A stretch of 64,000 bases of DNA, taken from the NCBI GenBank assembly GCA_002900995.3, contig CM035313.1:186001-250000 (forward strand), given 5' to 3'. A program made the position numbers and the translations under genes. This DNA is from Ganoderma boninense (taxonomy: Eukaryota; Basidiomycota; Agaricomycetes; Polyporales; Polyporaceae). This document shows, in pieces, positions 30,162 to 55,500 of the stretch; the first letter of the stretch is position 1, and each line of letters begins with the position of its first letter. The notes beneath the pieces are model-generated. The model was not told the origin of the DNA. It did no database searches and saw only the letters and a program-made list of their open reading frames with translations.

Positions 30162-31971
30162 ATTGCAAACTGCATGCTTGTGGCCTGCAAGCGCAAACAG
30201 CTCTGCACCAGAGCATGCATCCCAGAGCTTCACCATGCCATCCTGAGACCCAGTCATGACCAGTGCACCATCCGGTGAGAATGCAGTGTCCCTCAGGTCA
30301 TCCAATGGTGCCAACGCAGCTAGTTCTTCTCCTGTCTTGATGTCCATGACTTTGACTATGTTTGCTTGAGCCACAAGAAGGCATGAGCTGCTTGGCTCAA
30401 CTGCAGCACAGCGGAGCATGGAGGTGCCAGTTAGAAATGAGTTGTGCAGGGTTTTGGAAGAGAGGTTCCACAGAAAATAACCATGGTGGGACCCATAGAC
30501 AAGCCAGTGGCCATCAGCAGAGAATTTGACATAGTAGTCACCAGCTCCACATTTTAGGATGTAGATTTGGTGGAATGAATGGGTGTTCCAGAGTCGTACA
30601 GTGTGGTCATCGGCAATAGACCCAATCATGTCACCACTGGGGGACCATGCACAACAGGTGACAGGGCGAGTATGCCCTTCAAGTGTGGCAATGTTGCAGG
30701 AGCCTTCAGCCAGATCCCAGATTTGAATTTTGCAATCATCACCACCGGAAGTGAGATATCGGCCATCGGGGGAGAATGAGAGAGAGTTGACAGGTTTGTA
30801 GCTGTGAGCCGCCCATTGATGGAGGATGGCACCATTGGAACTGCCCCAGAGAATGATAGAACAGTCATCAGATGCAGTTGCTACCCACTTCCCATTGGGA
30901 GAAACTGCAAGATCCTTTATAAAGCCATTATGGCCTGCTCCAGGTTTAGCTAGGTACAGTATAGTTAGCTACTTTTCACATTTGAGGTGTGGCATAGATG
31001 TTATGTACCTTTTTGCTCTGTGACCATCAATGCTTCACCACTAGAGAGCCCAGAAAAGTGTCTCTGAGCTTTTGGGTCCAGAAAGGTTTTGCACCATCAT
31101 ATATGCTAGGTAAATTCCACACTCCCTGGGCTTGGGAGAACTTCTTCAAGGTCTGGTCCAACTCCTTGCATTGCTTTGAACCAGCTTCATCATCAACAGT
31201 TTTCATTATGCCGTAAATGCTAACCAATTGAAATGTGACTGTGACATCTTTGAGTGTTGAAGAAGAGAACTCCTTCAGGAGCACAATAGCAGAGGTGATA
31301 TCAGAGATGTCAAAGTGTGATTCCAGTGTGAGAGACCGCAGTTGGGGCCAGGGAAATGTGTGTGGAAGGCTGTATGATCTGTATGCTGTAATAATAAGAA
31401 TAATCATATATGAGTAGTGGAGCATAGCTATGAAGGCTAGAAAACTCATGTGAGATAGTGAGAGCCTTTACAGTAGACTGTACCAATCCTGAATCCAAAA
31501 GGAGCACAGCCACAGCTGGAGTGGGGGGAGATTCTTCTTCTATAGGCCCCAAAATGCCTCCTTCAATCAAAACCTTGCAAGTACAAATTCCATGCTTCAG
31601 TCATGGCCTCCACACAAACATCATAACAAAATACTCACAGTGTGTAGGTGCAGCTGCGCTAACATACGTTGTTTCAGCACATTGAGGGCTGCTTGATTTC
31701 CCTCTAATTCAACGTCAACATCATCGCAGACAAGCTCCATAAGGTTGGGGAACGTCAAGAGGGCTCGACCAAAATCAAGGTAGGTCTGGAAGGTAATGTC
31801 GCGAAGATGGAGGGCTTGAATGTGCGTGCCAAAGAGCCTGGAGCATTTGAGGGTGGACTGGTTTAGATGAATCACAGAAGATTCACTAGGTATGAATTGT
31901 AATGTTGATAGATTAGGGAGGATGCTGAGGAGGGGGAAGGGAGCAAAGTTGTCTGGGTCGACAGCGATGGA

Positions 31972-31975
31972 ACGG
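31972..31975. repeat. Target-site duplication, left (ACGG)
   Basis: ACGG lies directly before the 5' LTR and again directly after the 3' LTR (44445-44448). The empty site is preserved in unit III as GGAACGGACAAG (near 59515, reverse strand of its gene). An A on both sides means the duplication could also be read as 5 bp, AACGG. Confidence 0.85.
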
Positions 31976-32901
31976 TGTAGAGGTCCACGATCGCCCTGAC
32001 CTCTATTTTCGCACCTACGCCCACTACTGTCACGCTCCGCCGCGCGCCCCATTCCCGCGGTGCCATCCAACCTACGCGACTCCTTCCGGCGGCGAGCTCG
32101 CTCCCCGACGTAACTCTCCCGTCCAACACAGGTGTATAGGTGACCGCCGTGTCGCGGCGGTCCCAGCGCACTAATAGCGGTCGAAGGCAGCTCGGTTGGC
32201 GCGGGTACTTTGGCGCGGCGTTTGGTAGAACTCGGCGTGGCGTGGCAGGCACGTGGCGGGCGGAAGAGGCGCGGTACTCGATAAGGACGACGGGATTGGG
32301 CTTCCGAGCGGCGGGACCGTGTGCCCGGTTGGAGCCGAGCCCAGCGAGGCCTGGTATATGAATAGCGGGTATGGCGATTGGGCGAGAGGGAGCGCGTGCG
32401 CAGCGGCAAGAGGGCGCGACCGCGCGAGGAGTTCCAGTAGCGTAGTTGGCCGTTTGTTGGACTGTTGAGTAGACAACCCTGTACTTAGTTCGAGCGCAGG
32501 GTGGCGAAACGGAGGTTACGTTCCCCCTCGGTTCAGATTTCGTTCGCCAGTCTTCGAGTCCGTCGACAGAAGCTTTCGCGTTCAGAAGTCATCCGCACGC
32601 CGTCGTACCAGTAGTAGACCCGGCGTGATACGTTACCTCCGCTACGTTCCACAAGTCGTTGCGCTCGACCGCTACGCCGCGCAGTTATCACCGCCCATGC
32701 GTGGCTCGTCGCCCGGAGATTTGTTGAGTGGTTCTCGCTCTTCGCCTCTCTACCTCCGACTTCCCTCTCCACACTTCCATCCCTCTCTCTGGCTCCGCTG
32801 ATCGGCGGCACTCTCGAGCTTCCTCGCACCCCTTCGTTCGCAGCCCGTCCTTTCCCCGCGCTACTCTCCGAGTTGCGCGCAGGTTCCCCGTGAGCATCAC
32901 A
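31976..32901 (+). repeat. 5' LTR
   Basis: It is 926 bp long, beginning TGTAGAGG and ending CATCACA, with TG...CA ends. A TATATGAATA box near 32353 is a candidate core promoter. It aligns without gaps to the 3' LTR. Confidence 0.95.
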
Positions 32902-32904
32902 TTT

Positions 32905-32922
32905 TGGAGCCCACCGCGAGGG
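32905..32922 (+). promoter_or_regulatory. Primer-binding site
   Basis: TGGAGCCCACCGCGAGGG starts three bases after the 5' LTR. TGG is the complement of a tRNA CCA end. The matching tRNA was not identified here. Confidence 0.7.
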
Positions 32923-33271
32923 GGTTTCGAGTGTCGATCGCCCGGTCAAGGTGCCTTCACACCCACTCTCACTCGACCCCGGGTTCCGCCACGACCTCGC
33001 GGTCCTTCAAGCTCTAGCGAGAGCCAACGCTCCATCTCTGCGATCTACTTTCACTGATCCTTATCGGCGGCGGTTACTTCGTACCGTCTCCCTCCCCAAC
33101 TATCGACTCGACGACCCTCCACGACCGCGGCGACGAGCGTTTTCCGATTCCATCCTCACGCTGTCCCCGAAACTTTCGCGCGAGCTCAACGCGCTCCGCC
33201 AAGCTACCTTCGCTTCCGCCAGCACCTCCGGTCCTCGTACAACAAGGCGAGCCGCATCCGCAGCAAACCAA

Positions 33272-35986
33272 ATGGATCAAGGTGTCCCTCTTCCTCCCGG
33301 CGCGCAAGCGGGTAATCCCCCGCCGCCGGGCAACCCCCCTCCTCAACCCAATCCTAATCTCAACAATCCCAATCCAAACCCCCAGCCGAATCAGCCGCCG
33401 CCCCAAGCGGCGCGTGGTATGCCGGTTCGCGGCGAACGTACGTGTCCCATGTTTGTAACCGAGGATCCGCGCGGTGTGTGGCGGTACTTCAAGGACTTGG
33501 AGCAGTTGTTCACGCGAAACGGCATCAATAATGAGGACCTCAAGAAACAGTACGCAGTCCGGTATCCGCCGTCCGCGGCCGAGCAGGCGTGGCGGTGCCT
33601 ACCCTCGTTCGGCGACCATAACGCGACTTACATGGACTTCCGCGACGCTGTCCTCAAGTTGTATCGCGGTTCGAGCCAAACCGCGGTCTATACAGCCGCC
33701 GACTACGACACTTTAAGCGGGAAGCGGGTGCGTCTCGGACCGGTGGTGTCATACGACGAATACCTCGCCCACTACCTAGAGGCGCTCCCTATTATCACGC
33801 AGCTCACGCGGGTCGGGCGTATATCCGGGCAGCAGGCGTACCGTTTGCTAGAAATCGCGGTTCCGACGGACGTACTCCGGCGAGTCGAGGCCCACTTGGA
33901 GGCGCTACACCCTAACTTGGGGCTTAACGATATCTACACCGTCGACCAGTTCCACGAAGCGGTGTGTTATATCATGCAGCGCGGCGGACACTCGCTAGTT
34001 GGAGGCCTCTCGTATGGCAGTAGGGCGCCGGAAACCGTCACCGGTCTCTCTTCGCACATGGGAGGGCTAGCCCTTAACCCCACGGCGTACAACACGACCA
34101 CGACGGTCTACGCCGCGCCGCAGACGAACGCCGCACCCGCCCCTGTCAAACAAGAGCCGGAGAACGCAGAGATGTTTAAGGTGATTCTAGAATCAGTGAC
34201 ACAACTCACGAGGGCGATCACGACGCAGGCGCAGATGAACCAGCGTCCGCTGCCGGCGTATCCGCCACGAGGTCTGACGCCGCCGCCCGCGAACCGTGGC
34301 ATGGTAGGCGATCGCGGTCCGCCCCGGACGGGCTGCTTCTACTGCGGCAACGAGGGATGTAGCACTCGAGCCTGTCCCGAGGTCCAGGAGGATATGCGGC
34401 TGGGCAAGATTCGGCGGGACATCTACGGCAAGATTGTCCTCCACAACGGCGGGCAAATTCCCAACGTCCCCGCCGGCGGTCTTATCTGCGAACGGGTCAA
34501 CCTATACTACGACACTCATCCACGAGATGGAGGCCAGCCACCCGCCGTGTCGCAGCTAGCGCTCACGCTGGAGGACTGGGACCACGATTCGCTCCCAGCG
34601 TTAGACGAGTACGACGACAGCGATCTAGACATGTTCGGCCTCAAGGAGAGGTCCGCCGCCGCTCCGGCTCGCACTTCGTGGCGGTTTTCGCACGTCGCGG
34701 TCCCAAGCGCGCCATACCGAAAGCCCGCGGGTCTCCAGCCGATGAACCAGGCGACCGTGTCGCACCCTGCGCCAACTGGGGAAGGTCCTTCGCAGCCTCG
34801 AACAGCGGCGGCGACGCGCGCACGAACGAACTCGGAGTCGGTCACGTCGGATCCGGTTCAGCGGGCGCGAATTGTGGAAGAGACAGCCCAGTACGTCGAC
34901 GACGAGGCTCGGGCGGTAAAGGTCCACCTGTACGCGGCGGCGAAGGATGTGTCGACAGCGTCGATGCCAGCTCACCCTGCCGGAGATCTGGCAGCGGGTT
35001 CGTTAAGGGCCGCGCCCGCCCAGAAGTCGCGAGAGGCCGCCTACAAGACTGCGTACCCGGAGTTGGACCCTGAGGCGGAGGAGCGGATCGTCCAGCGCGT
35101 TCTTACAAACCTCCATTCGGTGTCGCTCACGCCAATCGAGCTGCTGAGTGTCGCACCGGGGATCCGGCGAAAAGTTCACGAAATCACGACCGCCCGCCGA
35201 GTGCCGACGTCGGCTACGGGGACCGCCGCGAAAGAGGCTACGACGATGAAGAAGGTGGCGTTCGCGACGCCGGAGGCAAGCGTCATGGTGCAAGAGGCCG
35301 AAGAAGGGGGCAGCAAGAACAGGGACCCACGCATAGAGGAGTACGAAGCCGACGACGGCGCGGAGGTCGAGGAGGCTCAGATTCTCAATTTGTCCGCGGC
35401 GGGCGGCAAGCATCTGCCCGCCGTATCCATCCTGGAGTCTAAGGGCACCCTACCGGCTGGCGTACACCGTGTCAGTTCGGAGGCGGCCTCCTCCTTTCCG
35501 CGGGAACTGTCAGACGGGGCGCTAGCGGCCGTCGACCGGCTCAAGATTCGTAGCATTTGGGGTGTCTTCGCCGGCGCGGAGGTGGTTGAATGCATTCTCG
35601 ACGGCGGCTGCCAGTTCATCGCGATGAGTGAGGAGTGCGCGCTCCGTCTCAAACTACCGTACGACCCCAGCGTGACGCTGCGGGCGGTCGCTGCGAACAG
35701 ATCGACCGACCGGGTCCTCGGGCTGGCGCGGAATGTGCCGCTGACGCTACCGGGTATGATCACCGTTCACCTCCAAGTATACATCATCCGCAACGCGTCG
35801 TACGACGTCCTACTCGGCCGGCCTTTCGAGTCGTTCCTCAGTGCGAAGGTCGAGAACCGGACGGACACGGAGCAGTTAATCACGGTGCGCTGCCCGAACA
35901 CCGACATCACGGTGACGATCCCGACGTACGCGCACGGCGAGCACCCAGCCCCTTCGCCAGCGCAGATACTGGGTTTTCAAGACTAG
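33272..35986 (+). CDS. gag: Gag with C-terminal protease
   Basis: The first in-frame ATG gives 904 aa; the frame is open from 32894 and coding-like from 32951, so a non-ATG start upstream is possible. The protein forms the particle that packages element RNA. The N-terminus is Pro/Asn-rich, then comes a capsid-like helical region (WRYFKDLEQLF onward). A zinc-knuckle follows at about residues 355-368 with the spacing C-x2-C-x4-C-x4-C, so the usual histidine is cysteine. The retropepsin-like aspartic protease is near residue 777, where the active-site triad reads D-G-G (ILDGGCQFIA) instead of D-T/S-G, with a later hydrophobic ILLGRPF-like YDVLLGRPF block. The stop lies 9 bases beyond the frameshift heptamer. 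Confidence 0.85.
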   Translation: MDQGVPLPPGAQAGNPPPPGNPPPQPNPNLNNPNPNPQPNQPPPQAARGMPVRGERTCPMFVTEDPRGVWRYFKDLEQLFTRNGINNEDLKKQYAVRYPPSAAEQAWRCLPSFGDHNATYMDFRDAVLKLYRGSSQTAVYTAADYDTLSGKRVRLGPVVSYDEYLAHYLEALPIITQLTRVGRISGQQAYRLLEIAVPTDVLRRVEAHLEALHPNLGLNDIYTVDQFHEAVCYIMQRGGHSLVGGLSYGSRAPETVTGLSSHMGGLALNPTAYNTTTTVYAAPQTNAAPAPVKQEPENAEMFKVILESVTQLTRAITTQAQMNQRPLPAYPPRGLTPPPANRGMVGDRGPPRTGCFYCGNEGCSTRACPEVQEDMRLGKIRRDIYGKIVLHNGGQIPNVPAGGLICERVNLYYDTHPRDGGQPPAVSQLALTLEDWDHDSLPALDEYDDSDLDMFGLKERSAAAPARTSWRFSHVAVPSAPYRKPAGLQPMNQATVSHPAPTGEGPSQPRTAAATRARTNSESVTSDPVQRARIVEETAQYVDDEARAVKVHLYAAAKDVSTASMPAHPAGDLAAGSLRAAPAQKSREAAYKTAYPELDPEAEERIVQRVLTNLHSVSLTPIELLSVAPGIRRKVHEITTARRVPTSATGTAAKEATTMKKVAFATPEASVMVQEAEEGGSKNRDPRIEEYEADDGAEVEEAQILNLSAAGGKHLPAVSILESKGTLPAGVHRVSSEAASSFPRELSDGALAAVDRLKIRSIWGVFAGAEVVECILDGGCQFIAMSEECALRLKLPYDPSVTLRAVAANRSTDRVLGLARNVPLTLPGMITVHLQVYIIRNASYDVLLGRPFESFLSAKVENRTDTEQLITVRCPNTDITVTIPTYAHGEHPAPSPAQILGFQD
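35971..35977 (+). promoter_or_regulatory. -1 ribosomal frameshift heptamer GGGTTTT
   Basis: In the gag frame it reads G GGT TTT, a standard X XXY YYZ slippery site. It lies directly before CAA GAC TAG, the end of gag. A -1 slip joins gag to SRLEELVPDEDG, the start of the conserved pol frame. A possible hairpin pairs ACGAAGAC (36002-36009) with GTC...TTCGT (36015-36026); its 24-nt distance is longer than usual. Confidence 0.8.
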
Positions 35987-38900
35987 AGGAGTTGGTTCCA
36001 GACGAAGACGGTTTGTCGGCGTTCGTGATCGAGTTTGACCAAGACACCGATGAAGCCGCCTTCGTCGCGTATACCCCGCTGCCCGACAAGGACAGCTCCT
36101 CTACTGCCGCTGCTTATTTATTGTCGTGCGATCCGGATCAAATTTCTCGTCCTCCCTACTCAGTCTCTCCGTCCTTCATGCGCCGGCACCGCGTGGTGCT
36201 AGCGACCGCGACCGTAGCGGTTCCGCCTACGCCACCGCCGGCCCCAGAAAACAGCAAAACCCACGTCGACGATCAGAATAAATGCGCTAGCGACTCCGCT
36301 CCTTCCCGTCTTTCTCCGGCTCTCATCTCCAATCTCTATTCCATGTACGACACACTAGACCGCGCGGATGAAGCGGTTTCGACCGCCGACGATGCCGATA
36401 TTCTCCTCTCTACCAAGAAAAAGTACAAGCCGGTCACGCTGAAGGTCAAGCCTCTGCAAACAGAGCTCCCAGAACGCTTCCGCATCCAGCGCCGCATAGT
36501 TGGCGACCCGCTCGCCGACTTGCCGCCGCTGGACCCCAACCCGCCGCCGTTTCGACCCGGCGCGCGATACACCACGGAACGTCGAGCGGCGATGCACGAC
36601 GTTCACGCTCCGTTCCTCAATCCGGCGGAGCTAGCGATCCTCGACGACCTTATTCTCAAACAAGAGTTGGGCCTCGCGTGGGATGACGCCGAGCGCGGTC
36701 GTTTCCGCGCGGACTTCTTCCCGCCAGTCGAGATCCCGACGGTTCCGCACAAGCCGTGGGTGCTGAAGAACATTCCAATTCCGCCGGGGCTATACCGCGA
36801 GGTCTGCGACATCATCCGGAAGAAGATCGACAGCGGCGTGTACGAGCCTTCGAACTCGTCGTACCGGTCGCGCTGGTTCTGCGTGCTCAAGAAGGATGGC
36901 AAGAGTCTCCGAATCGTCCACAGTCTCGAGCCGCTCAACGCGGTCACCATCCAGCACTCAGGCGTGACGCCAATTCCAGAGCAGCTCGCTGAGCAATTTG
37001 CGGGGCGGCCGTGTGTCGGTTTACTCGATCTCTTCGTCGGATACGATGAGCGGGAGATAGCGGAGTCATCTCGCGATCTCACAACGTTCCAAACGCCGTT
37101 CGGCGCGCATCGCCTCGTGACGCTGCCCATGGGCTGGTCAAACTCCGTGCCGATCTTCCATGACGATGTCACGTTCATACTCCAAGACGAAATCCCCGCC
37201 TATACCGTCCCCTACATAGACGATGTGCCCATCAAAGGCCCCGAGACCGACTATCGACGGGTGGACGGGTCTTGCGAGACCATGGCCGCGAACCCGCTCG
37301 TCCGGCGTTTTGTCTGGGAGCACCTACAAGTGGTTAACCGGATAGTTCAGCGCGTCCGCTATGAGGGCGGGACGTTCTCGGGCAAGAAATTCCTGGCGTG
37401 TGTTGAGGAAGGGATTGTCGTCGGTCACCGCTGTACGCCAACGGGGCGTCTGCCTGACCTGGAGCGCGTCGACAAGGTCTTGAGCTGGGGCGCATGCCGC
37501 GACCTGTCTGACTTGCGGGCGTTCCTAGGTACGATCGGCGTCGCGCGAATCTTCATCAAGGATTTCGCCAAACTCGCGCACCCGCTGGTGAACCTAACTC
37601 GAAAGGACGTCCCGTTCGTGTGGACCGTCGAGCAAGATCGCGTGATGGACCTCATGAAGCAGCGCCTGCTCGATTCCCCGGCTCTCCGCGCGATCGACTA
37701 CGACTCCGACGTGCCAGTCATCGTCGGCGTCGACACGTCCTGGCTCGCTGTGGGCTTCCTACTTTGCCAGCAGGACCTCGCCAAGCCATCGGTCAGGTAC
37801 TACAATCGTTTCGGCTCGATCACGCTCAACGCCCGGGAACAGCGCTTTTCTCAGCCCAAACTGGAGATCTACGGTCTCTATCGCGCTCTTCGGGCGCTGC
37901 GTCTGTGGGTCATCGGAGTCCGTAACCTGGTCGTTGAAGTCGACGCGCGGTACATCCAAGGCATGCTCGTGAACCCAGATATCATGCCGACGGCGTCCAT
38001 CAACCGGTGGATCATGGCGATTCATATGTTCCATTTCACCCTGGTTCATGTCCCGGGCGAACGTCATGCACCTGACGGTCTCTCATGCCGCCCGCCGCAA
38101 GAAGGCAACGTCGCGCCCACGGATGACGACTTCGACAGCTGGATCGACAACCTCTACGCGTTCACAGTCGAGTGTCTCCCGCCGATACGGCTCGGCGACG
38201 CTTGTAGCGAAGAGGTCGCGTTCCCGCTCGCCGCTAGTTATCCGGGCCCCCAACAAGCGGAGATCTACTCGCTCGAGGAGCGTGGTGCAAGCGCCGCGCC
38301 GCCGTATGAACAGTTCCCGCGGACGGACCACGCGAAGGCGACGGACGCTCTCATGTCAAAGGTCGCGGACTATTTACGTACGCTGCGACGTCCGTCGGAC
38401 CTGAGCGACAAGGCCTTCAAGTCGTTCCTCACGCTGGCGCTCCAATTCGGCATCGACGCGCAAGGCCAGCTCTGGCGGAAGGTTCCTACGGGGGCGCACC
38501 GCAAGTATCTAGCGGTCGACAAGCGGTCGGACGTCCTCCGAGAATTTCACGACCGCATCGGCCACCGGGGATTCTATGCGACGCGCTCATTCGTGTGCGA
38601 GCGCTTCTGGTGGCCGGACATGCGCACGGACATCCAATGGTTCGTCCGGACTTGTCATCTTTGTCAAGTTCGGAAGACGACGCACGTCGTGCTCCCGCCG
38701 ACTGTGGCGTATCCAGCGGCGCCTATGTTCCGCGTCCATGTCGACACCGCCTCAATGCCGGGCAAGTACAAGTATCTCGCCCATGCTCGCTGTGCTACCA
38801 CATCTTGGCCAGAAGCCCGTGCGCTCACGGCGGAGACGGCGAAGACGCTCGGCGAGTTCGTGTACCAAGACCTCTTGTCCCGATGGGGCACGCTTAGCGA

Positions 38901-39702
38901 ACTAATCTCGGACAACGGCAAGCCGTGGGTCGCCGCGCTGGAGTACTTGGCGACCAAGTATCACGTCAATCACATCCGTATCTCGGGCTACAACTCCAGA
39001 GCCAATGGGGTCGTCAAGAGTCCGCACCATCCGACGCGCGATGCACTGTATAAGGCGACGGAGGGCGATGCCACGGCGTGGCAGACCAAGCTTCACTCTG
39101 TACTGTGGGCTGATCGCGCATCGGTCCGCCGTCGCATGGGCTGCTCGCCGTACTTCGCCGTTACGGGCACGCATCCGATCCTACCCCTGGACATCGTGGA
39201 AGCAACATACTTGGTTCCGCCGCCGGACGCTATGCTCAGTACGGCTGACCTCATCGCTCGGCGAGCGATCGCGTTACAGAAGCGAGAGGATCAAGTCGCC
39301 TCGCTCCGCTCCCGAGTCTACGCGCAGCGTGTCGCGGACGTCAAGCGGCTGGAAGAGCAGTATCGCGCCACCATCCACGACTTCAATTTCGCCAAGGGGC
39401 GCCTAGTCCTATTGCGCAACACGGCGATCGAGAAGTCTCTCAACCGCAAGATGCGCCCGCGTTATTTGGGACCATACGTGGTCCTCGCCCGGAATCGCGG
39501 GGGCGCGTATGTCCTCGCCGAACTAGATGGCGCGGTATTCGACCGCCCAGTCGCTGCGTTCCGCGTCATCCCCTATCACGCCAGATCCGACACTATCGCG
39601 GTTCCAGATGCGCTCCTCGACGCTGACTCCTGGCGAGTCAGAGAGCTCGAGCAGTCGGACGAGACGGGCGAGGGCGCGGAGCTGCTCGACGACGTGCCGT
39701 GA
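35977..39702 (+). CDS. pol: Pol: reverse transcriptase, RNase H, integrase
   Basis: It is expressed as a Gag-Pol fusion through the -1 shift, giving about 1,241 aa after the slip. RT: TFQTPFG, LPMGWSNS and the catalytic YIDD (37213-37224). RNase H: VDTS near 37730, LEIYGLY and VEVDARY carry the acidic residues, then a APDGLS connection. Integrase: an H-x4-H...C-x2-C zinc domain (about 38548-38670) and core aspartates at 38743 (HVDTA) and 38911 (ISDNG). The position of the third acidic residue, in the ANGVVE-type motif, is AAG (Lys) at 39016-39018. The end has a RPRYLGPY module. No stops interrupt the frame. With the changed residue, integrase is probably inactive unless supplied by another copy. 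Confidence 0.92.
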   Translation, partial: SRLEELVPDEDGLSAFVIEFDQDTDEAAFVAYTPLPDKDSSSTAAAYLLSCDPDQISRPPYSVSPSFMRRHRVVLATATVAVPPTPPPAPENSKTHVDDQNKCASDSAPSRLSPALISNLYSMYDTLDRADEAVSTADDADILLSTKKKYKPVTLKVKPLQTELPERFRIQRRIVGDPLADLPPLDPNPPPFRPGARYTTERRAAMHDVHAPFLNPAELAILDDLILKQELGLAWDDAERGRFRADFFPPVEIPTVPHKPWVLKNIPIPPGLYREVCDIIRKKIDSGVYEPSNSSYRSRWFCVLKKDGKSLRIVHSLEPLNAVTIQHSGVTPIPEQLAEQFAGRPCVGLLDLFVGYDEREIAESSRDLTTFQTPFGAHRLVTLPMGWSNSVPIFHDDVTFILQDEIPAYTVPYIDDVPIKGPETDYRRVDGSCETMAANPLVRRFVWEHLQVVNRIVQRVRYEGGTFSGKKFLACVEEGIVVGHRCTPTGRLPDLERVDKVLSWGACRDLSDLRAFLGTIGVARIFIKDFAKLAHPLVNLTRKDVPFVWTVEQDRVMDLMKQRLLDSPALRAIDYDSDVPVIVGVDTSWLAVGFLLCQQDLAKPSVRYYNRFGSITLNAREQRFSQPKLEIYGLYRALRALRLWVIGVRNLVVEVDARYIQGMLVNPDIMPTASINRWIMAIHMFHFTLVHVPGERHAPDGLSCRPPQEGNVAPTDDDFDSWIDNLYAFTVECLPPIRLGDACSEEVAFPLAASYPGPQQAEIYSLEERGASAAPPYEQFPRTDHAKATDALMSKVADYLRTLRRPSDLSDKAFKSFLTLALQFGIDAQGQLWRKVPTGAHRKYLAVDKRSDVLREFHDRIGHRGFYATRSFVCERFWWPDMRTDIQWFVRTCHLCQVRKTTHVVLPPTVAYPAAPMFRVHVDTASMPGKYKYLAHARCATTSWPEARALTAETAKTLGEFVYQDLLSRWGTLSELISDNGKPWVAALEYLATKYHVNHIRISGYNSRANGVVKSPHHPTRDALYKATEGDATAWQTKLHSVLWADRASVRRRMGCSPYFAVTGTHPILPLDIVEATYLVPPPDAMLSTADLIARRAIALQKREDQVASLRSRVYAQRVADVKRLEEQYRATIHDFNFAKGRLVLLRNTAIEKSLNRKMRPRYLGPYVVLARNRGGAYVLAELDGAVFDRPVAAFRVIPYHARSDTIAVPDALLDADSWRVRELEQSDETGEGAELLDDVP

Positions 39703-40063
39703 TCCGGCGGGCACACGCCTCGCTCCCTGGCGCCGGCGCGCGGGCGGGCGGTCTGCCTGTACAGTATATCTCCTTTATTTAGTCACTTTCCTTTTCTACG
39801 TTGCATCGCGTTTACATTTCTACCGCTGCTTTTCTTCCCATTCCCTTACGTCACGCTGGCTGGGGACAGCCACAATTTCAGTGGGGGGGGAGAGATAGAC
39901 GTTTGTTTTATTTACAAGTCCAATTACTATATATTAAGAAAACCACAAAACAGATACTACGTACATTTAGCAAAAAGACAATGCGAAGGACTACGTTACG
40001 ATAAGATGCGATACACGAACTAACGACAAGCGAAGCACAGGCACCCGCGCCGAGTCAAGAAAC
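39703..40063. other. Spacer between pol and the antisense cassette
   Basis: This AT-rich, convergent 3' region lies between pol (plus) and the zinc-cluster gene (minus). It holds TATTTAGT- and ATATATT-like stretches that could serve as polyadenylation signals for either strand, and the internal polypurine tract at 39879-39895. Confidence 0.6.
39879..39895 (+). promoter_or_regulatory. Internal polypurine tract
   Basis: CAGTGGGGGGGGAGAGA closely resembles the 3' polypurine tract at 43505-43518 (CAGTGGGGGGGAGA). The following bases (TAGACGT against TAGAGGT at the LTR start) are similar too. It could be a central plus-strand primer or the remains of an older 3' end. Confidence 0.65.
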
Positions 40064-42269
40064 CTACTCTTCGGCCTCGCGGACCTCCCACCGAGTCGAA
40101 GGAGCCGGCACGAACGGGCTCGCGTACTTGCCGAAACCGAGTCGAGTACGGGCTTCCTCCCGCTGTTCAAGAGCGCGCATGAGCGCGGTGTCGCGGCTGA
40201 CGCGGGCGGAGAGGACGTTGTACTCCTCGCGGAGCGCGGCGATGTCGTGGTCGAGCGCGGTGCCGTAGGATCCGCGGCGGCCGGGTGTGGGGTCCTCAGC
40301 ATAGCCCGCGGCGTAGGGGAGCTCGTCGAGCTCGTCCACGGTGTCAATAGGCGGGCGCGCCGAGCGAGGCCGTGGCCGCGAAGCCGGAATAGGAGCGCGG
40401 CGAGGAGGTGATGGGGAGGCGGCGGCGGAAGAAGAATGCGGGGAAGGCCGGGGATCGCCATGGTCGCCAGCGCCACCACCAGCGTTTCCGCCGTCGGCGT
40501 CTTCGTCGTCGTCGTCGTCGTCGTCGTCTGAAGGAAACGCGGGAGGAGGGCGAGCAAGGGAGGGATGGCGCGCTGTCTTCTCGAAGTCTTCTTCGTCCGA
40601 AGGAGAAGCGGACCTTGCAGCCACGAGAGCGAAGTTGAGGGACGTGGACAGGGTGGACAAGTTGACGAAGAAGCGGTTCCGCACGTGGGATGACGACCGG
40701 TACTGGGTCGGCGTGTCCGGCGTCGACTGGTCGTACGCTTGCAGGTGGCGGGCGAGGCGCTGTCCATGGCCGTCGGTAAGCTGGAGCCCGAGGTGCTGCT
40801 GTTGCTCGAGGACCTCGACCACGCACTCGATACGTGTACGTTCTCCGCGCGTAAGGTCCGGAGGGAACGAGAAGCCGACCCCGTTGAAGGCGGCGAAGGC
40901 GCGCTGGGAGCTGCCGATTACCCCGTTCTGATTCTGGAGGTAGTAGTGGCAGCGGGTCTTGGCCTTGGCGCAGCCGTTGCACCGGGGCGCAGAAGGGGGC
41001 AAGACGCATGGCTGTTGGCGATGGCGGCAATGGTCGCACTGCCCCGGGAAAATGGAGAGCGGACCCTTTTTGTTGGAGCGCGCGGACAGAGCAGTAGAAG
41101 GCGACGGCACGGCAGCCGCAGGAGATGACGGCGGGTGAGGGGCGTCGGCGCGAGGACGTTTACGAGGGGGTGGCGTCGAAGGCGTAGCGGCCGGCAGAGT
41201 GGGCGAATACGAGGGGTCGCCACTCGAGGACGAGTGATGGACGCGCTTCGGGGCAGGACGCTGGGCGTACGGCGGCCGGTATACGCCAAGGAAGGGGAGG
41301 GACCCGGCAATAGAGGCCCTTCCAGCCGAAGGAGCAGCGTCGTCCGGCGCTCCGTCGTTCTCGAAGACGGCGGCGGCGTAGGAGTCGTCCTTTAACTCCT
41401 CCACGTCGTCGGACGGTGACGCGTCGCTTGCCAAGCCTTGGCCCCGCGTGGGAGAGTCAGCGTCCACCGGAGCGAAGCCGTCGTTGGGCGAGCGCGAGGA
41501 GGAGTCATGGGAGGTGGAGGAATAGTCGACGAGAGGCGTGGACGCCGGCGGTGGTGTCGGCTCCGGCGTGTTCCCGACGTAGGAGCCGCCCGGACTAATG
41601 TGGAGTTCGAGACCGCTGCGATAGTACGGGTACTCCTCGAGGGCCTCCACTGGAAGGTGAAGCGTTAGCAAGTTCGGCGGGACGAAACGGGCATCACGAC
41701 GTACCGGCGCGGCTGAAGTACGGGACCCAACCCTCTAGCCACTCCTGCTCCGCATCCAAGGCAGCCAGTTGGTCAGCGAGGCGGCTGTCGACGTCGGCGA
41801 AGTCCTCGGCTGGGAAGACACCTTCGGCGACGCGGTTAGGGAGCGCCTGCCGTGTCGCGGCGATTTCGTCGGCCTGCCGGCAGACCACCTCAAGAGCGGC
41901 GTGGAGGTCCTTGTTGGCGCGCGTCCGGGACCGTCGGGAGTAGGCGCGGAGGAAGGCGTTGGAGGCGTGGGGATCCGGGTTGTGGGCCGCGACTACGGCG
42001 AAGGCGCGCTCGAAGAGGGGATCCGGGAGCGTCAGCGACGGCGAGTCGTCGGCGAGGGCCAGGAATCGCGTTCCGAAGTCGGCGTACGTGAGCGCGGGGA
42101 AAGGGTGGTGTTTGCCCTCGAAGTCGGCGACAAGAGCGGCCAGCGGGATGAGGGCGAGCTCGTGGAAGTGGGTCTCGTCCCTCTCCTCGGGAGGGACGTA
42201 GCGGAAGTGGTGGGCGTAGGCGGTCGAGAAGATGTCGCCAGGGATGTCGGAGGGTACGGGGTCGGACAT
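40064..42269 (-). CDS. Zn2Cys6 zinc-cluster protein, antisense in the retroelement
   Basis: There are two exons, 42269-41705 and 41649-40064, giving 716 aa. The 55-nt intron has GTACGT, a GCTAAC branch site and TTCCAG, with phase 1 on both sides. The ATG sits in CCCACCATGTC, 52-61 nt after a TATAAA-like box. Residues 393-422 hold a perfect fungal zinc cluster, C-x2-C-x6-C-x8-C-x2-C-x6-C (genomic 41038-40949), preceded by a basic RKRPR stretch that could be a nuclear signal. A poly-aspartate run encoded by GTC repeats (about 40502-40530) and a charged, helix-prone C-terminus follow. Such clusters bind DNA in fungal transcription factors, so a regulator of the element or host is the natural guess. 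The middle-homology region of typical factors was not recognised. There is no match for the N-terminal 190 residues. Confidence 0.82.
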
Positions 42270-42320
42270 GGTGGGCGCGCAGAGGGAGGAGGATGGTAGA
42301 ACAGGCGAAGCGACGGCGCA

Positions 42321-42330
42321 AGTTTATAGG
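42321..42330 (-). promoter_or_regulatory. TATA-like box of the zinc-cluster gene
   Basis: CCTATAAACT on the minus strand lies about 55 nt before the ATG at 42269, in the short gap between the two antisense genes. Confidence 0.6.
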
Positions 42331-42494
42331 TGCGCGGCGAAGTACAGCGGCCCTAACTAACGCTACACTTCTCTCCCTCTCCCTGTCACCGCTCGTTGCC
42401 GCACAGCCACACTGCCTCGCGTTCTGTCCAAATCCGGCACCCAACTTTCCTTCCGTGCAACGCGGCGCCGCACATTTCCGAGGCGCCGTGGCGT

Positions 42495-43383
42495 TTACTC
42501 TGGGACCCGCGGGCCGTCGGCTCCGTTCACCTCCACCGGAACCGCTTCCCCAGCGCGCTCCGAGGGGGCGCTAGTGTCGCTAGTGCTGGATTCGTCCGCG
42601 TCGCCTGAAGAGTCCCCACCCGGGGTGCGCGCCCCAATTGTCGAAGACGCGCGCTCACCTTGGTCGCTTCCGCTGGGACTCTCAACCACGACGCCGTGCG
42701 CGACGACGGACGGAGGGTTCTCGACGAGTACACGCGGGGGTTCCTCTTCGGCGCGAGCGGCATGGTGGACGGTGCGCTGCCAGTCGCGCCGTATCGGAAG
42801 CATCTCGCGCGGAGTCGCGTAGAGCTCTTCAAGGAGCTGGTAGTCAAGGCGGAAATCGTTGAACGCGGTGCGGGTCCGGAAGGCCATCTCTTCTGCGGTC
42901 GCCACCCCCTCGCACGTCATTTCGTTGTGGTACCGGTCGACGAGGACGCGCGCGTGGTGTGCTTGTTCCTTCTCCACCAGAGAGAGCATATAATTCGCCG
43001 CTACCTCGCCCCACCGCTGCTCGTTCACCCACGCTTCGTAATGAGTGGTCAAGCGGGTCGCTATGTCGTCCAGTCCGCGGGCGCGTAGGAGCAGCATGGC
43101 GCGTGCGAAGTATACGCCAACGGTGGGATCGTGAAAATCCAGCGCGTGCAAATGTTCCTGTCGGCAAGGGTCAGTCGCGCGGAGGACGTCTCGGGCACCA
43201 ACATACCAAGGACGCGAAAAACTCGTACGCCACCTGGCGGCGAAACGGACGCGACTCGTCCGTACATGCCGCCTCGAACGCTTCCCAGTCAGCGGTCACG
43301 GCGCGGAGGGCGTAGGGCCGTAGGGTTTGCTGAGCACTCTGGCGCAGGCGCAAGATCTCCAGCATCGTCGAGAAGTCCGCCAT
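42495..43383 (-). CDS. Unidentified spliced antisense protein of the retroelement
   Basis: There are two exons, 43383-43207 and 43157-42495, giving 279 aa. The 49-nt intron has GTATGT, a CTGAC branch site and CGACAG and keeps phase 0 (ending ...FFASL, resuming EHLHALDF). The start ATG is in TACCATGG, about 40 nt after GGATAAAAGG. Residues 1-210 are rich in predicted helix (Leu, Ala, Arg, Glu), while the last 70 are Ser/Gly/Asp-rich and probably disordered. There is no signal peptide or membrane segment and no family was recognised. It lies 225 bp upstream of the zinc-cluster gene on the same strand, so the two form a tandem pair carried as one cassette. Confidence 0.78.
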
Positions 43384-43420
43384 GGTAGAGGACGTCGGGG
43401 GCACGGTACGGTCGCCTTTG

Positions 43421-43430
43421 CCTTTTATCC
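43421..43430 (-). promoter_or_regulatory. TATA-like box of the upstream antisense gene
   Basis: GGATAAAAGG on the minus strand lies 38-47 nt before the ATG at 43383. The whole promoter must fit between here and the 3' LTR (43519), or it lies inside the LTR. Confidence 0.6.
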
Positions 43431-43504
43431 CCTGCAGCATCCGCGCCATGTCTGGCGAGTTCCGCCATTGATGGCCGGTCATGAACCGAGGACGGTTCAA
43501 GTCT

Positions 43505-43518
43505 CAGTGGGGGGGAGA
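43505..43518 (+). promoter_or_regulatory. 3' polypurine tract
   Basis: CAGTGGGGGGGAGA lies directly against the first base of the 3' LTR. It is the expected primer for plus-strand DNA synthesis. Confidence 0.88.
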
Positions 43519-44444
43519 TGTAGAGGTCCACGATCGCCCTGACCTCTATTTTCGCGCCTACACCCACTACTGTCACGCTCCGCTGCGCGCCCCATTCCCG
43601 CGGTGCCATCCAACCTACGCGACTCCTTCCGGCGGCGAGCTCGCTCCCCGACGTAACTCTCCCGTCCAACACAGGTGTATAGGTGACCGCCGTGTCGCGG
43701 CGGTCCCAGCGCACTAATAGCGGTCGAAGGCAGCTCGGTTGGCGCGGGTACTTTGGCGCGGCGTTTGGTAGAACTCGGCGTGGCGTGGCAGGCACGTGGC
43801 GGGCGGAAGAGGCGCGGTACTCGATAAGGACGACGGGATTGGGCTTCCGAGCGGCGGGACCGTGTGCCCAGTTGGAGCCGAGCCCGGCGAGGCCTGGTAT
43901 ATGAATAGCGGGTATGGCGATTGGGCGAGAGGGAGCGCGTGCGCAGCGGCAAGAGGGCGCGACCGCGCGAGGAGTTCCAGTAGCGTAGTTGGCCGTTTGT
44001 TGGACTGTTGAGTAGACAACCCTGTACTTAGTTCGAGCGCAGGGTGGCGAAACGGAGGTTACGTTCCCCCTCGGTTCAGATTTCGTTCGCCAGTCTTCGA
44101 GTCCGTCGACAGAAGCTTTCGCGTTCAGAAGTCATCCGCACGCCGTCGTACCAGTAGTAGACCCGGCGTGATACGTTACCTCCGCTACGTTCCACAAGTC
44201 GTTGCGCTCGACCGCTACGCTGCGCAGTTATCACCGCCCACGCGTGGCTCGTCACCCGGAGATTTGTTGAGTGGTTCTCACTCTTCGCCTCTCTACCTCC
44301 GACTTCCCTCTCCACACTTCCATCCCTCTCTCTGGCTCCGCTGATCGGCGGCACTCTCGAGCTTCCTCGCACCCCTTCGTTCGCAGCCCGTCCTTTCCCC
44401 GCGCTACTCTCCGAGTTGCGCGCAGGTTCCCCGTGAGCATCACA
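43519..44444 (+). repeat. 3' LTR
   Basis: It is 926 bp long and aligns without gaps to the 5' LTR with nine differences, all at CpG positions. It ends CATCACA, followed by ACGG. Confidence 0.95.
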
Positions 44445-44448
44445 ACGG
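44445..44448. repeat. Target-site duplication, right (ACGG)
   Basis: This is the second copy of the 4-bp duplication at 31972-31975. Gene B exon 1 resumes here. Confidence 0.85.
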
Positions 44449-44811
44449 ACAAGGGGCTTCAGATGCGGGTTCGCCTTGACAAAGTCGCAGAAGTCGAAGA
44501 TATCACCCCTGCGCTTGAAGTGAACTTCGGCGACGAGTAAACACAGTGCACGGGGACGGAGGTCGCGGCAGGTGAGAGAGAAGTTGTGCAGGGAGTTGGG
44601 ATCGTCACCACAGTGCCCGATGACCCTCTCGATGACCTCCCAAGGCAGCGACGGGGAGAAGATAGCGAATTGGTTGGGATATAGTGGGGGAGTGGATGGG
44701 GTCACAGTTTGCGAGATATCGTCCACGTCCGATAGGGGCTGCATGGTAGTGGCGGAGACGGCGATAGACGGTGGGATGTTCAGCTTGTTGGACGCAAGCA
44801 CGGCTGGTTGA

Positions 44812-44950
44812 AGTGAGGAATGGGGGCGAGGTCAGGATGGGAGTGAGGTCGGGGTGGAATGTGAGCGAGGTTAGGATGAGAGCGAGGTCAGGACGAGAGC
44901 GAGATCGGGTTGAGAGCGAGGTCGGGGTGAGAGTGCGGACAAGTTGAGGG
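44812..44950 (-). repeat. 17-bp minisatellite before gene B, unit II
   Basis: These are tandem GTCGGGATGAGAGCGAG-type units (minus-strand CTCGCTCTCATCCCGAC). They lie directly upstream of the mutated start codon at 44801, as in the other units. Confidence 0.8.
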
Positions 44951-53665: not shown

Positions 53666-55500
53666 GCGGCTTGGCTGAGAATCCAAGTGCAGGTTTCTCG
53701 CTCTTCCTACACCCGACTTCTCCGAGAGGCGCGTCGCAGCGCCGTCCTTCGTGCTTCCAGAGGCAGGACGGAAGAGCTGTGAGGCCCTCAATGCGTACAC
53801 GAGGGTGGTCCGCTGCTGATCATGCAGGACTCGAGCTCGCAATCGCGCTCTCCGAGGTCCGCTGTGGCTGGACGGACGGTGTGGAAAACCCAAGAGGAAC
53901 ACGGGAGGGCTTGGAGGCGCACTGGAGGTCCTGAGAGGGAAACAGAATGAACGCCAACGTGCGACCCCATCGAAGGGGTTCGGAAGCACCGTGGGCTGCG
54001 GCCAGGTCGGACAAACGCTCCTCGACTGGAGTGGGCCACACGTCTATCGCTTGCACCCGTGACCAAGCGTACAGCTCCTGGGGCATGTAAATCGGGGAAG
54101 CTATTCCATAGGGTGGCGGCTTCAGAGGGATCGTCAACGATCCGGAGACGAGGATGGACGCACCGTAGTCTTTGTATCAGACGCGGACAATCCCTAACCA
54201 CGCTCGGCCAACGTCCACGTCTTTCTGGAATGGCGTGTTGTAGCCTTGCGTGCTGCGTGACCGAAAATGCTCGCTGGATATTTCGCAGTCCAGGGCAAGG
54301 CGAACACGTCGCGAACAGGGTGCCTGTTGTCTTCTACTTGAAAACCTTACGACGCGCTGCTTCGCCAGACGATCCGCCCATTACGTTCTCCCTCCAGAGG
54401 CTGCCAGCAGAGAATTCCAAGTGGTCCAGAGTCACGTCGTGCTCAAGACGAGTGGCTCATGTATGTTGCGATGGAGAATCCTGATGGTGCACCGGACGAT
54501 CTGAGGCCTGAGTTCGCGTGTAGTCAGAAATGATGTGTCCATGTCCGCGCAGTATTAAATAATATGTCGATGTTGCAGGTAGGAGCGGCGGAATACGATA
54601 CAAGGATAGGTACACGGTTAGGATATTGGAACAGCGCAATGAGGGTGTGGACGTACGTACATGCGCATGTCCCGCGCATACCAGGGAGAGCCTCATTGCA
54701 GATATCAGTGCGGGTCTTGACGTGAAGCCGGATTGCGGAGCGAGGAAACCTAGGTCTAACAGGAGCGGCATTCGAGGCGATCAGACTCGAAGGTCCAGAA
54801 AAGGACCAGGAGCTAGACAGCATAGAGTACAAGAGAGAGGACGCAAGACTAGGACGAGGAGCCTTTGAACGGTCAGAGAAGCGGGCGACCCCAGACATCC
54901 TGGAGACACGGGGTTCACGGGGGAAGGGCACAGTTGAACGGCAATGGAGGATATTCACCTTAAGTCAATCCACCCATCCTATGTACTCTTCAGGCTACGT
55001 ACTGCTGCATCACACTCGCCTATGGCTCCGCGATAGTTGGCCACGTATCGTTCCTCCATGTGGAGTGCCAAAGATGGGGATCATTGGACACGCGAGTGCG
55101 AGAGGGCGGGTACTAGGGCGTCAATGATGTTCCCTCCGCGTGGCTTCGGAGAAATGGGGATGGCGACCATGAGCTGCGTAGTATCTAGGGCTTCAGTTGC
55201 ATAAAGGTGAGACAAGATGTGTGCCGGGCTGGGGATGGGCTCGGGCAGCAAACAGAACGCGGGATGTATTTGGCCTTGTTTGCCCACCTCTTGGCGCTTG
55301 TCGCGCTGTCTTGCCCTCGCGATTGCTTCGTCCGCTCTCCATGTCGTCCATCCAAAGTACAGTTCCGGTTTCTCTCACTGTATCATACAGAACATTACTG
55401 AAGCTGCCTATCAAGTCCAGCCTTCCCCCTCCAAAGGAGGAGAAACCAAACTGAAGGATCCTGGGTCCGCGAGCACCTCGACAGACTGAACTTCTTCCTC
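53666..55500. other. Unassigned region between units II and III
   Basis: Short open frames occur on both strands (for example minus 54201-53788 and 54958-54524, plus 55197-55489). None shows a domain, a conserved counterpart or clear exon structure. No repeat or RNA gene was seen. Confidence 0.35.

Follow-up and report, generated by a model that had tools for sequence, protein, structure and literature searches.

In a 64,000-nucleotide stretch of the Ganoderma boninense genome (contig CM035313.1, positions 186,001 to 250,000; hereafter the window, with coordinates counted from its first letter), we identified one Ty3/gypsy-type long terminal repeat (LTR) retrotransposon, spanning 31976-44444 from LTR to LTR, which carries between pol and its 3' LTR two minus-strand genes, A and B, with one canonical short intron apiece. 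Judged by sequence comparison within the genome, the element probably represents a clade of fungal Ty3/gypsy elements with an antisense accessory cassette placed between an inner and a terminal polypurine tract, the product of gene A acting on the LTR or the chromatin of the element itself. A sequence-only reading of the window had proposed the two genes with exactly the introns 41650-41704 and 43158-43206, and both are confirmed by our reading. It had ascribed them to a single element; they are indeed present there, but the arrangement is wider and occurs in at least four lineages of this genome.

Two spliced antisense genes

Gene A (716 aa) runs from an ATG at 42269 to a stop at 40064. In its spliced reading, exon 1 (41705..42269) and exon 2 (40064..41649) are separated by a 55-nt intron of phase 1 (41650..41704), predicted from the splice signals GTACGT..GCTAAC..CAG. 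Gene B (279 aa), with an ATG at 43383 and a stop at 42495, is likewise read as exon 1 (43207..43383), a predicted 49-nt intron of phase 0 (43158..43206; GTATGT..CTGAC..CAG) and exon 2 (42495..43157). Without splicing, both frames hit a stop at most a dozen codons past the donor. The only database relative of gene B, GSI_06485 of Ganoderma sinense (68% identity over residues 1-189), aligns without interruption over the predicted splice junction, with FFASL before it and EHLHALD after it.

Direct reading of the minus strand places TATAAA upstream of gene A (42323..42328) and ATAAAA upstream of gene B (43423..43428); the ATG contexts are CCACCATGT and TACCATGG, respectively. The TATA-like boxes and start contexts noted in the sequence-only reading are thus readable in the sequence. 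On the same strand AATAAA (39907..39912), 152 nt beyond the stop of gene A, is a possible poly(A) signal of that gene.

The element and its antisense genes form a single inserted unit, since the flanks rejoin into one frame and a target duplication of 4-5 bp surrounds the element. Flank comparison gives this duplication as ACGG at 31972..31975, with the right copy at 44445-44448 (AACGG if counted as 5 bp); joining the flanks as an empty site yields a single 245-aa minus-strand open frame across the site and restores the host frame. The expectation that the cassette moves with the element is borne out by this join and by the introns, which are kept where copies align.

Purifying selection on the antisense frames

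Length is weak evidence for these open frames: only one of 1000 dinucleotide-model sequences had an open reading frame (ORF) of at least 556 codons, but 247 had one of at least 266, and ORF length was dropped as proof of coding for gene B. The case is carried by the substitution pattern and by recurrence in sister lineages. Searches with A and B gave ten hit clusters genome-wide, including genes on contig C9, several fragments on C14 and a relative on C6 with no pol match nearby. Copies on C22, C5 and C14, the last of them decayed, were compared with the window element.

Judged by these comparisons, A and B are kept by purifying selection as proteins. The ratio of non-synonymous to synonymous change (dN/dS) between the window element and the C22 copy is 0.28 for the whole of gene A (0.29 in exon 1, 0.28 in exon 2) and 0.34 for B exon 2; between the window and C5 it is 0.19 for A exon 2 and 0.21 for the whole of B, with 0.16 for pol. 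Between C22 and C5, A exon 2 has 0.35 and A exon 1 has 0.15. The value of 0.53 for A exon 1 between the window and C5, based on 13 differences, speaks against constraint in that exon. A second family, compared between elements L058 and L062, gave 0.22 for exons 1-2 of its A-type gene A2 (228 codons) and 0.32 for its B-type gene B2 (12 changes).

In a six-frame control, which took in A exon 2 against C5 and C22 and B exon 2 against C5 and C14, the annotated frame had dN/dS of 0.19-0.28 over all four comparisons (B exon 2: 0.23 with C5, 0.24 with C14). When C5 or C22 is the partner (three comparisons), only this frame combines low dN/dS (0.19-0.28) with zero stops; against the decayed C14 copy it has three stops. 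Coding on the sense strand was considered as the source of the pattern and excluded, the wobble-sharing sense frame having 6-13 stops over the four comparisons at dN/dS of 0.29-0.45 (0.29-0.37 in the three with C5 and C22). Changes in A exon 2 relative to C5 fall on the three codon positions as 27/18/73 (P=2e-10). The same test gave P=2e-7 for A with C22, 7e-8 for A with C14 and 3e-5 for B with C14, and 0.03 and 0.07 for B with C5 and C22. The comparison of synonymous and non-synonymous change that the sequence-only reading had proposed thus finds constraint on the minus-strand frames.

The exons of the C22 copy show indels of 39 and 9 nt, those of the C5 copy indels of 39 and 24 nt; B exon 1 of C22 further contains an insertion of a single base, and C14 has many indels that break the frame. 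Donor, branch site and acceptor of the A intron are identical in C22 and C5 where aligned, and those of the B intron are unchanged in C22, C5 and C14 where aligned. That the frames arose by chance in GC-rich DNA, with introns chosen by eye, might be suggested by the frequency of frames as long as that of gene B among the model sequences, but is contradicted by the substitution pattern, the copy alignments and the six-frame control, as well as by the Ganoderma sinense protein spanning the B junction, and we regard it as scarcely credible.

The antisense RNA, and not a protein, might matter, if convergent transcripts formed double-stranded RNA that limits the element. Antisense promoters and control by double-stranded RNA are discussed for plant elements in the available text of PMC7264820, and TATA-like boxes do lie upstream of A and B. 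However, codon-level constraint in the antisense frame favours a protein, as do the indels in C5 and C22, which mostly preserve the frame, and we consider an RNA function highly improbable.

The compared copies have peculiarities of their own. Synonymous divergence (dS) in A exon 2 (40067-41649) is 0.20-0.23 in the window pairs, while A exon 1, B and pol of the same pairs have only 0.04-0.09, a pattern that recombination between copies close to the A intron might produce. In the C5 copy (2811.9-2819.5 kb; L049, L050) roughly 7.6 kb of other sequence divides gene A near the end of exon 1. In the C22 copy (39-59 kb; L047, L048) pol lies in pieces at 39008-43806 and 54063-54638, with about 10 kb of other sequence apparently inside it. 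On C14, the region 13-36 kb holds two decayed cassette copies in opposite orientation, a palindrome-like duplication.

Recurrence in sister lineages

Four lineages in the genome, namely the window element and elements L058 (contig C12), L059 (contig C3) and L060 (contig C8), each have two or three antisense spliced genes, with predicted introns, after pol; all three further clade elements that were read downstream of pol hold such genes. L058 encodes A2, with a cysteine cluster CX2CX6CX8CX2CX6C, together with B2 and a third gene, C2. L059 encodes A3, with CX2CX6CX10CX2CX6C, and B3, and L060 encodes A4, B4 and C4. A six-cysteine cluster is thus found in three of the four lineages (A, A2 and A3), and six cysteines were present in 8 of the 11 loci scanned besides the window. 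With C4 as the query, 12 matches were obtained, spread over 11 loci. For B2, comparison with B4 points to an in-frame intron of 51 nt in place of an unspliced 214-aa frame.

BLASTP links A with A3 (6e-8, over the zinc cluster and an NG.G.SF stretch), B2 with B4 (3e-26) and C2 with C4 (1e-12). The other genes (A2, A4, B3, and B relative to B2) owe their grouping solely to where they lie, to their cysteines or to the phase of their introns. A phase 1 intron sits at a matching place in A, A3 and A4, and a phase 0 intron occurs in B, B2, B3 and B4; A2 and A3 have in common a phase 0 intron immediately before the first cysteine. Where sequence homology is absent, equal intron phase is only suggestive of kinship.

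The arrangement was counted with the last 208 aa of the L060 pol as query; all 50 candidates were scored, and 39 matches merged to 35 loci. Loci of at least 53% identity to this pol end (24) were taken as the clade and 10 loci at 27-44% as distant; the queries for antisense matches were A, B, A2, B2, A3, B4 and A4. Twenty of the 24 clade pol ends, many of them copies of one family, are followed at no more than 12 kb by an A/B-type match on the other strand, versus none of the 10 distant ones, a weak zero that could hide divergent genes; because the queries were drawn from the clade itself, this contrast is partly built in. A pol end on contig C64 (43% identity) also has an antisense match, and the distant locus C13:1021412 has A3-like matches 11.6 kb upstream. 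The sample unbiased by these queries is small and consists of the window element, L058, L059 and L060, all with genes, and a single distant element, L061, in whose 3 kb read no antisense frame longer than 109 aa was found among those listed. Each family has an almost fixed distance between the end of pol and the antisense match that comes first: 266-270 nt (six A2 elements), 484-486 nt (three A3 elements) and 387-389 nt (three window-family copies). Conserved copies in related elements, which the sequence-only reading had named as a test of its proposal, are therefore found both in L058, L059 and L060 and among the clade pol ends.

Besides the limits of this tally, several observations weigh against a cassette common to the clade. 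No antisense match was obtained for 4 of the 24 clade pol ends (C14:38752, C2:3178719, C8:898177 and C21:35024), and at C14:38752, in a decayed duplicated region, matches lie on the same strand. A4 of L060 has no cysteine cluster. BLASTP linked neither A2 nor A4 to A, and B3 to no other B gene; between B and B2 no homology was found by BLASTP or by profile comparison.

These genes might instead be host genes captured as passengers, members of a host family that the element transduced and that serve the host or nothing. Tandem A-like genes on contig C9 (14-24 kb; L056, L057), with 27-46% identity and without the six-cysteine motif, lie in a region of which 20 kb were read without a match to gag or pol, and 15 of 16 clusters of A4/B4 type lack a pol match within 12 kb among the best 54 of 480 pol candidates. 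For one of those 15 (C1:4109232), however, a second pol list gives a clade pol end, and the C9 genes may as well descend from elements. Four lineages hold such genes at the same place and on the same strand, and constraint on A and B comes fairly near that on pol; the same argument for function is made for plants in the available part of the review PMC7264820. We therefore think it unlikely that the genes are passengers. The C9 genes and the pol-less A4/B4-type clusters may be a source of the cassette, may descend from it by domestication, or may belong to elements that the searches did not reach.

Polypurine tracts bounding the cassette

The sequence straight after pol in the window is CAGTGGGGGGGGAGAGATAGA, and a motif like an internal polypurine tract, CAGTGGGGGGGGAGAGA, lies on the plus strand between pol and the antisense genes (39879..39895). 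The terminal polypurine tract, CAGTGGGGGGGAGA (43505..43518, plus strand), adjoins the 3' LTR, which begins with TGTAGA. A G-rich purine tract after pol is likewise present in L048, L049, L058, L059 and L060. In the distant element L061, inspection by eye shows a short G-rich tract, missed by the purine-pattern scan, and a TGT start immediately past the pol end. From this layout we infer that the cassette was inserted between an ancestral polypurine tract and the LTR; the internal tract could act as a plus-strand start resembling a central polypurine tract.

The predicted zinc-cluster product

The six-cysteine segment of gene A, CDHCRHRQQPCVLPPSAPRCNGCAKAKTRC (41038-40949, in exon 2), makes up residues 393-422 of the product and has the spacing CX2CX6CX8CX2CX6C, which is unique in the six frames of the window and is that of the binuclear Zn2Cys6 cluster (PF00172). 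On this ground the product of gene A is Zn2Cys6-like. It resembles fungal Zn2Cys6 proteins such as GAL4 and LAC9 in spacing and through weak hits, but differs in its sub-threshold Pfam score and in the few basic residues between its second and third cysteines. Nuclear localisation signal (NLS)-like basic strings were found by a simple pattern scan in A, A2 and A3, and the same pattern found none in A4 or B; the nucleus is the probable site of action of the zinc-cluster products.

The profile evidence runs counter to this assignment. The Pfam Zn_clus score is 14.1 bits for A and 10.7 bits for A3, both under the curated cut-off of 21, and A2 has no match to this profile. Of five hits in a PDB search with A, the top two are unrelated proteins (E 0.38 and 0.57) and the remaining three are LAC9 and GAL4 (E 0.69-2.9). 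No homologue of A was found in the protein collection among the best 7995 candidates, nor among 902 candidates. At E<=1, no Pfam family was found for A or B, TRP28 (PF04195) and bZIP included. From the Zn2Cys6 protein announced in the sequence-only reading, the cysteine spacing therefore stands, and the family score does not reach the threshold.

The proteins might also work in the particle or during integration, with the zinc cluster of A binding nucleic acid within a packaging complex or a pre-integration complex. Basic residues are scarce between the second and third cysteines of A, presumably in contrast to GAL4-type proteins, and gag has a small cysteine motif of its own, CFYCGNEGC. Promoter-like sequences and NLS-like strings, on the other hand, fit separate nuclear expression, and we judge a particle role to be improbable.

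Proposed mode of action

The favoured explanation, an accessory cassette whose zinc-cluster protein acts on the element itself, would work as follows. The sense RNA of the element reads the cassette introns as CT..AC and should be unable to splice them, so that by splice-site rules, and in agreement with the copies examined, they are retained through retrotransposition, reverse transcription copying the cassette with introns intact. A and B would be transcribed from their own promoters. A would be a nuclear zinc-cluster protein acting on the element's LTR or chromatin, either as an activator or as a brake on copy number, comparable in position to HBZ of HTLV-1, with B, and C where present, as its partners. 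The cassette would have been acquired early in the clade and then have diverged together with pol. The element clade is probably basidiomycete, judging by the Ganoderma relative of B. With comparable sets in close relatives in the same genome, the genes seem to be an established accessory equipment of these elements and not a passenger picked up once.

A wider proposal is offered tentatively, and with rather less confidence: the whole clade might be two-stranded, with gag-pol set against a co-inherited row of 2-3 antisense genes, spliced and enclosed by two polypurine tracts, the zinc-cluster protein serving as the element's own transcription factor and the free-standing relatives being its source or its domesticated descendants.

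Relation to known antisense genes

HBZ of HTLV-1 is an antisense gene near the 3' LTR and encodes a nuclear bZIP protein. The window genes share the position near the 3' LTR and, for A, a predicted nuclear product, but neither A nor B has a bZIP match, and the host belongs to another kingdom. In plants, aORF-3R elements include Grande with gene23, RIRE2 and Retand with TRP28, according to the available text of PMC7264820 and PMC11963269. As in these, an antisense gene of the window element lies between pol and the 3' LTR; it is also present in most copies, by a tally partly built in, with conservation like that of other element genes. Unlike the plant genes, A and B have no match to TRP28 or another Pfam family, and the window clade has two or three spliced genes, mostly with six cysteines. 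Introns, zinc and fungi are not mentioned in PMC11963269.

The closest fungal case is the antisense gene brtn of Boty, an LTR element of Botrytis cinerea, cited in PMC7264820 and PMC8365987. It too is an extra antisense gene in a fungal LTR element, but the host is an ascomycete, brtn is named as one gene, and the citing papers, as far as their text is available, do not mention introns, a zinc cluster or additional genes in antisense. PMC5408684, in its available part, deals with genes that rotifer elements have gained. A multi-gene spliced antisense set, or an antisense zinc-cluster gene, in basidiomycete elements was not found in the open-licence literature as far as it is accessible. Single antisense genes at this place are thus already known from plants and one ascomycete, and the multi-gene, spliced, zinc-cluster set is a new form of this arrangement. 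The novelty claimed in the sequence-only reading holds for this set; brtn, carried antisense by an LTR element of a fungus, was already in print.

Accessory genes on the antisense strand of LTR elements have long been on record, with their function still unassigned, as the available text of PMC7264820 and PMC11963269 has it. The fungal clade offers many copies, coding constraint, introns that their antisense position can preserve, a zinc cluster and distant relatives that yielded no such gene, features that make the role of such genes approachable by comparison and deletion experiments. Among the orphan genes annotated in fungi, some may be parts of such elements; a candidate is GSI_06485 of Ganoderma sinense.

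Structure of the element and its insertion site

Paired LTRs and the target-site duplication identify the element as an LTR retrotransposon. The 5' LTR (31976..32901) and 3' LTR (43519..44444), both plus-strand and of 926 nt by pairwise comparison, are 99.0% identical; they differ at 9 of 926 aligned positions, every one a transition. The plus-strand gag-protease frame, read from stop to stop, covers 32894..35986 and matches PF13650 Asp_protease_2 at 25.3 bits (cut-off 24.3). The pol frame, also plus-strand and stop-to-stop (35632..39702), overlaps gag in a different frame and has RNase H and integrase matches above cut-off (PF17921, PF17919, PF17917). The domains follow the Ty3/gypsy order of protease (PF13650), RNase H (PF17919, PF17917) and integrase (PF17921). 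A Pfam search of pol gave no match to the reverse transcriptase RVT_1 at E<=1; a YIDD motif is readable in frame. The minus-strand frame interrupted by the insertion (31300-31975 and 44445-44831) appears F-box-like by eye, without a family search.

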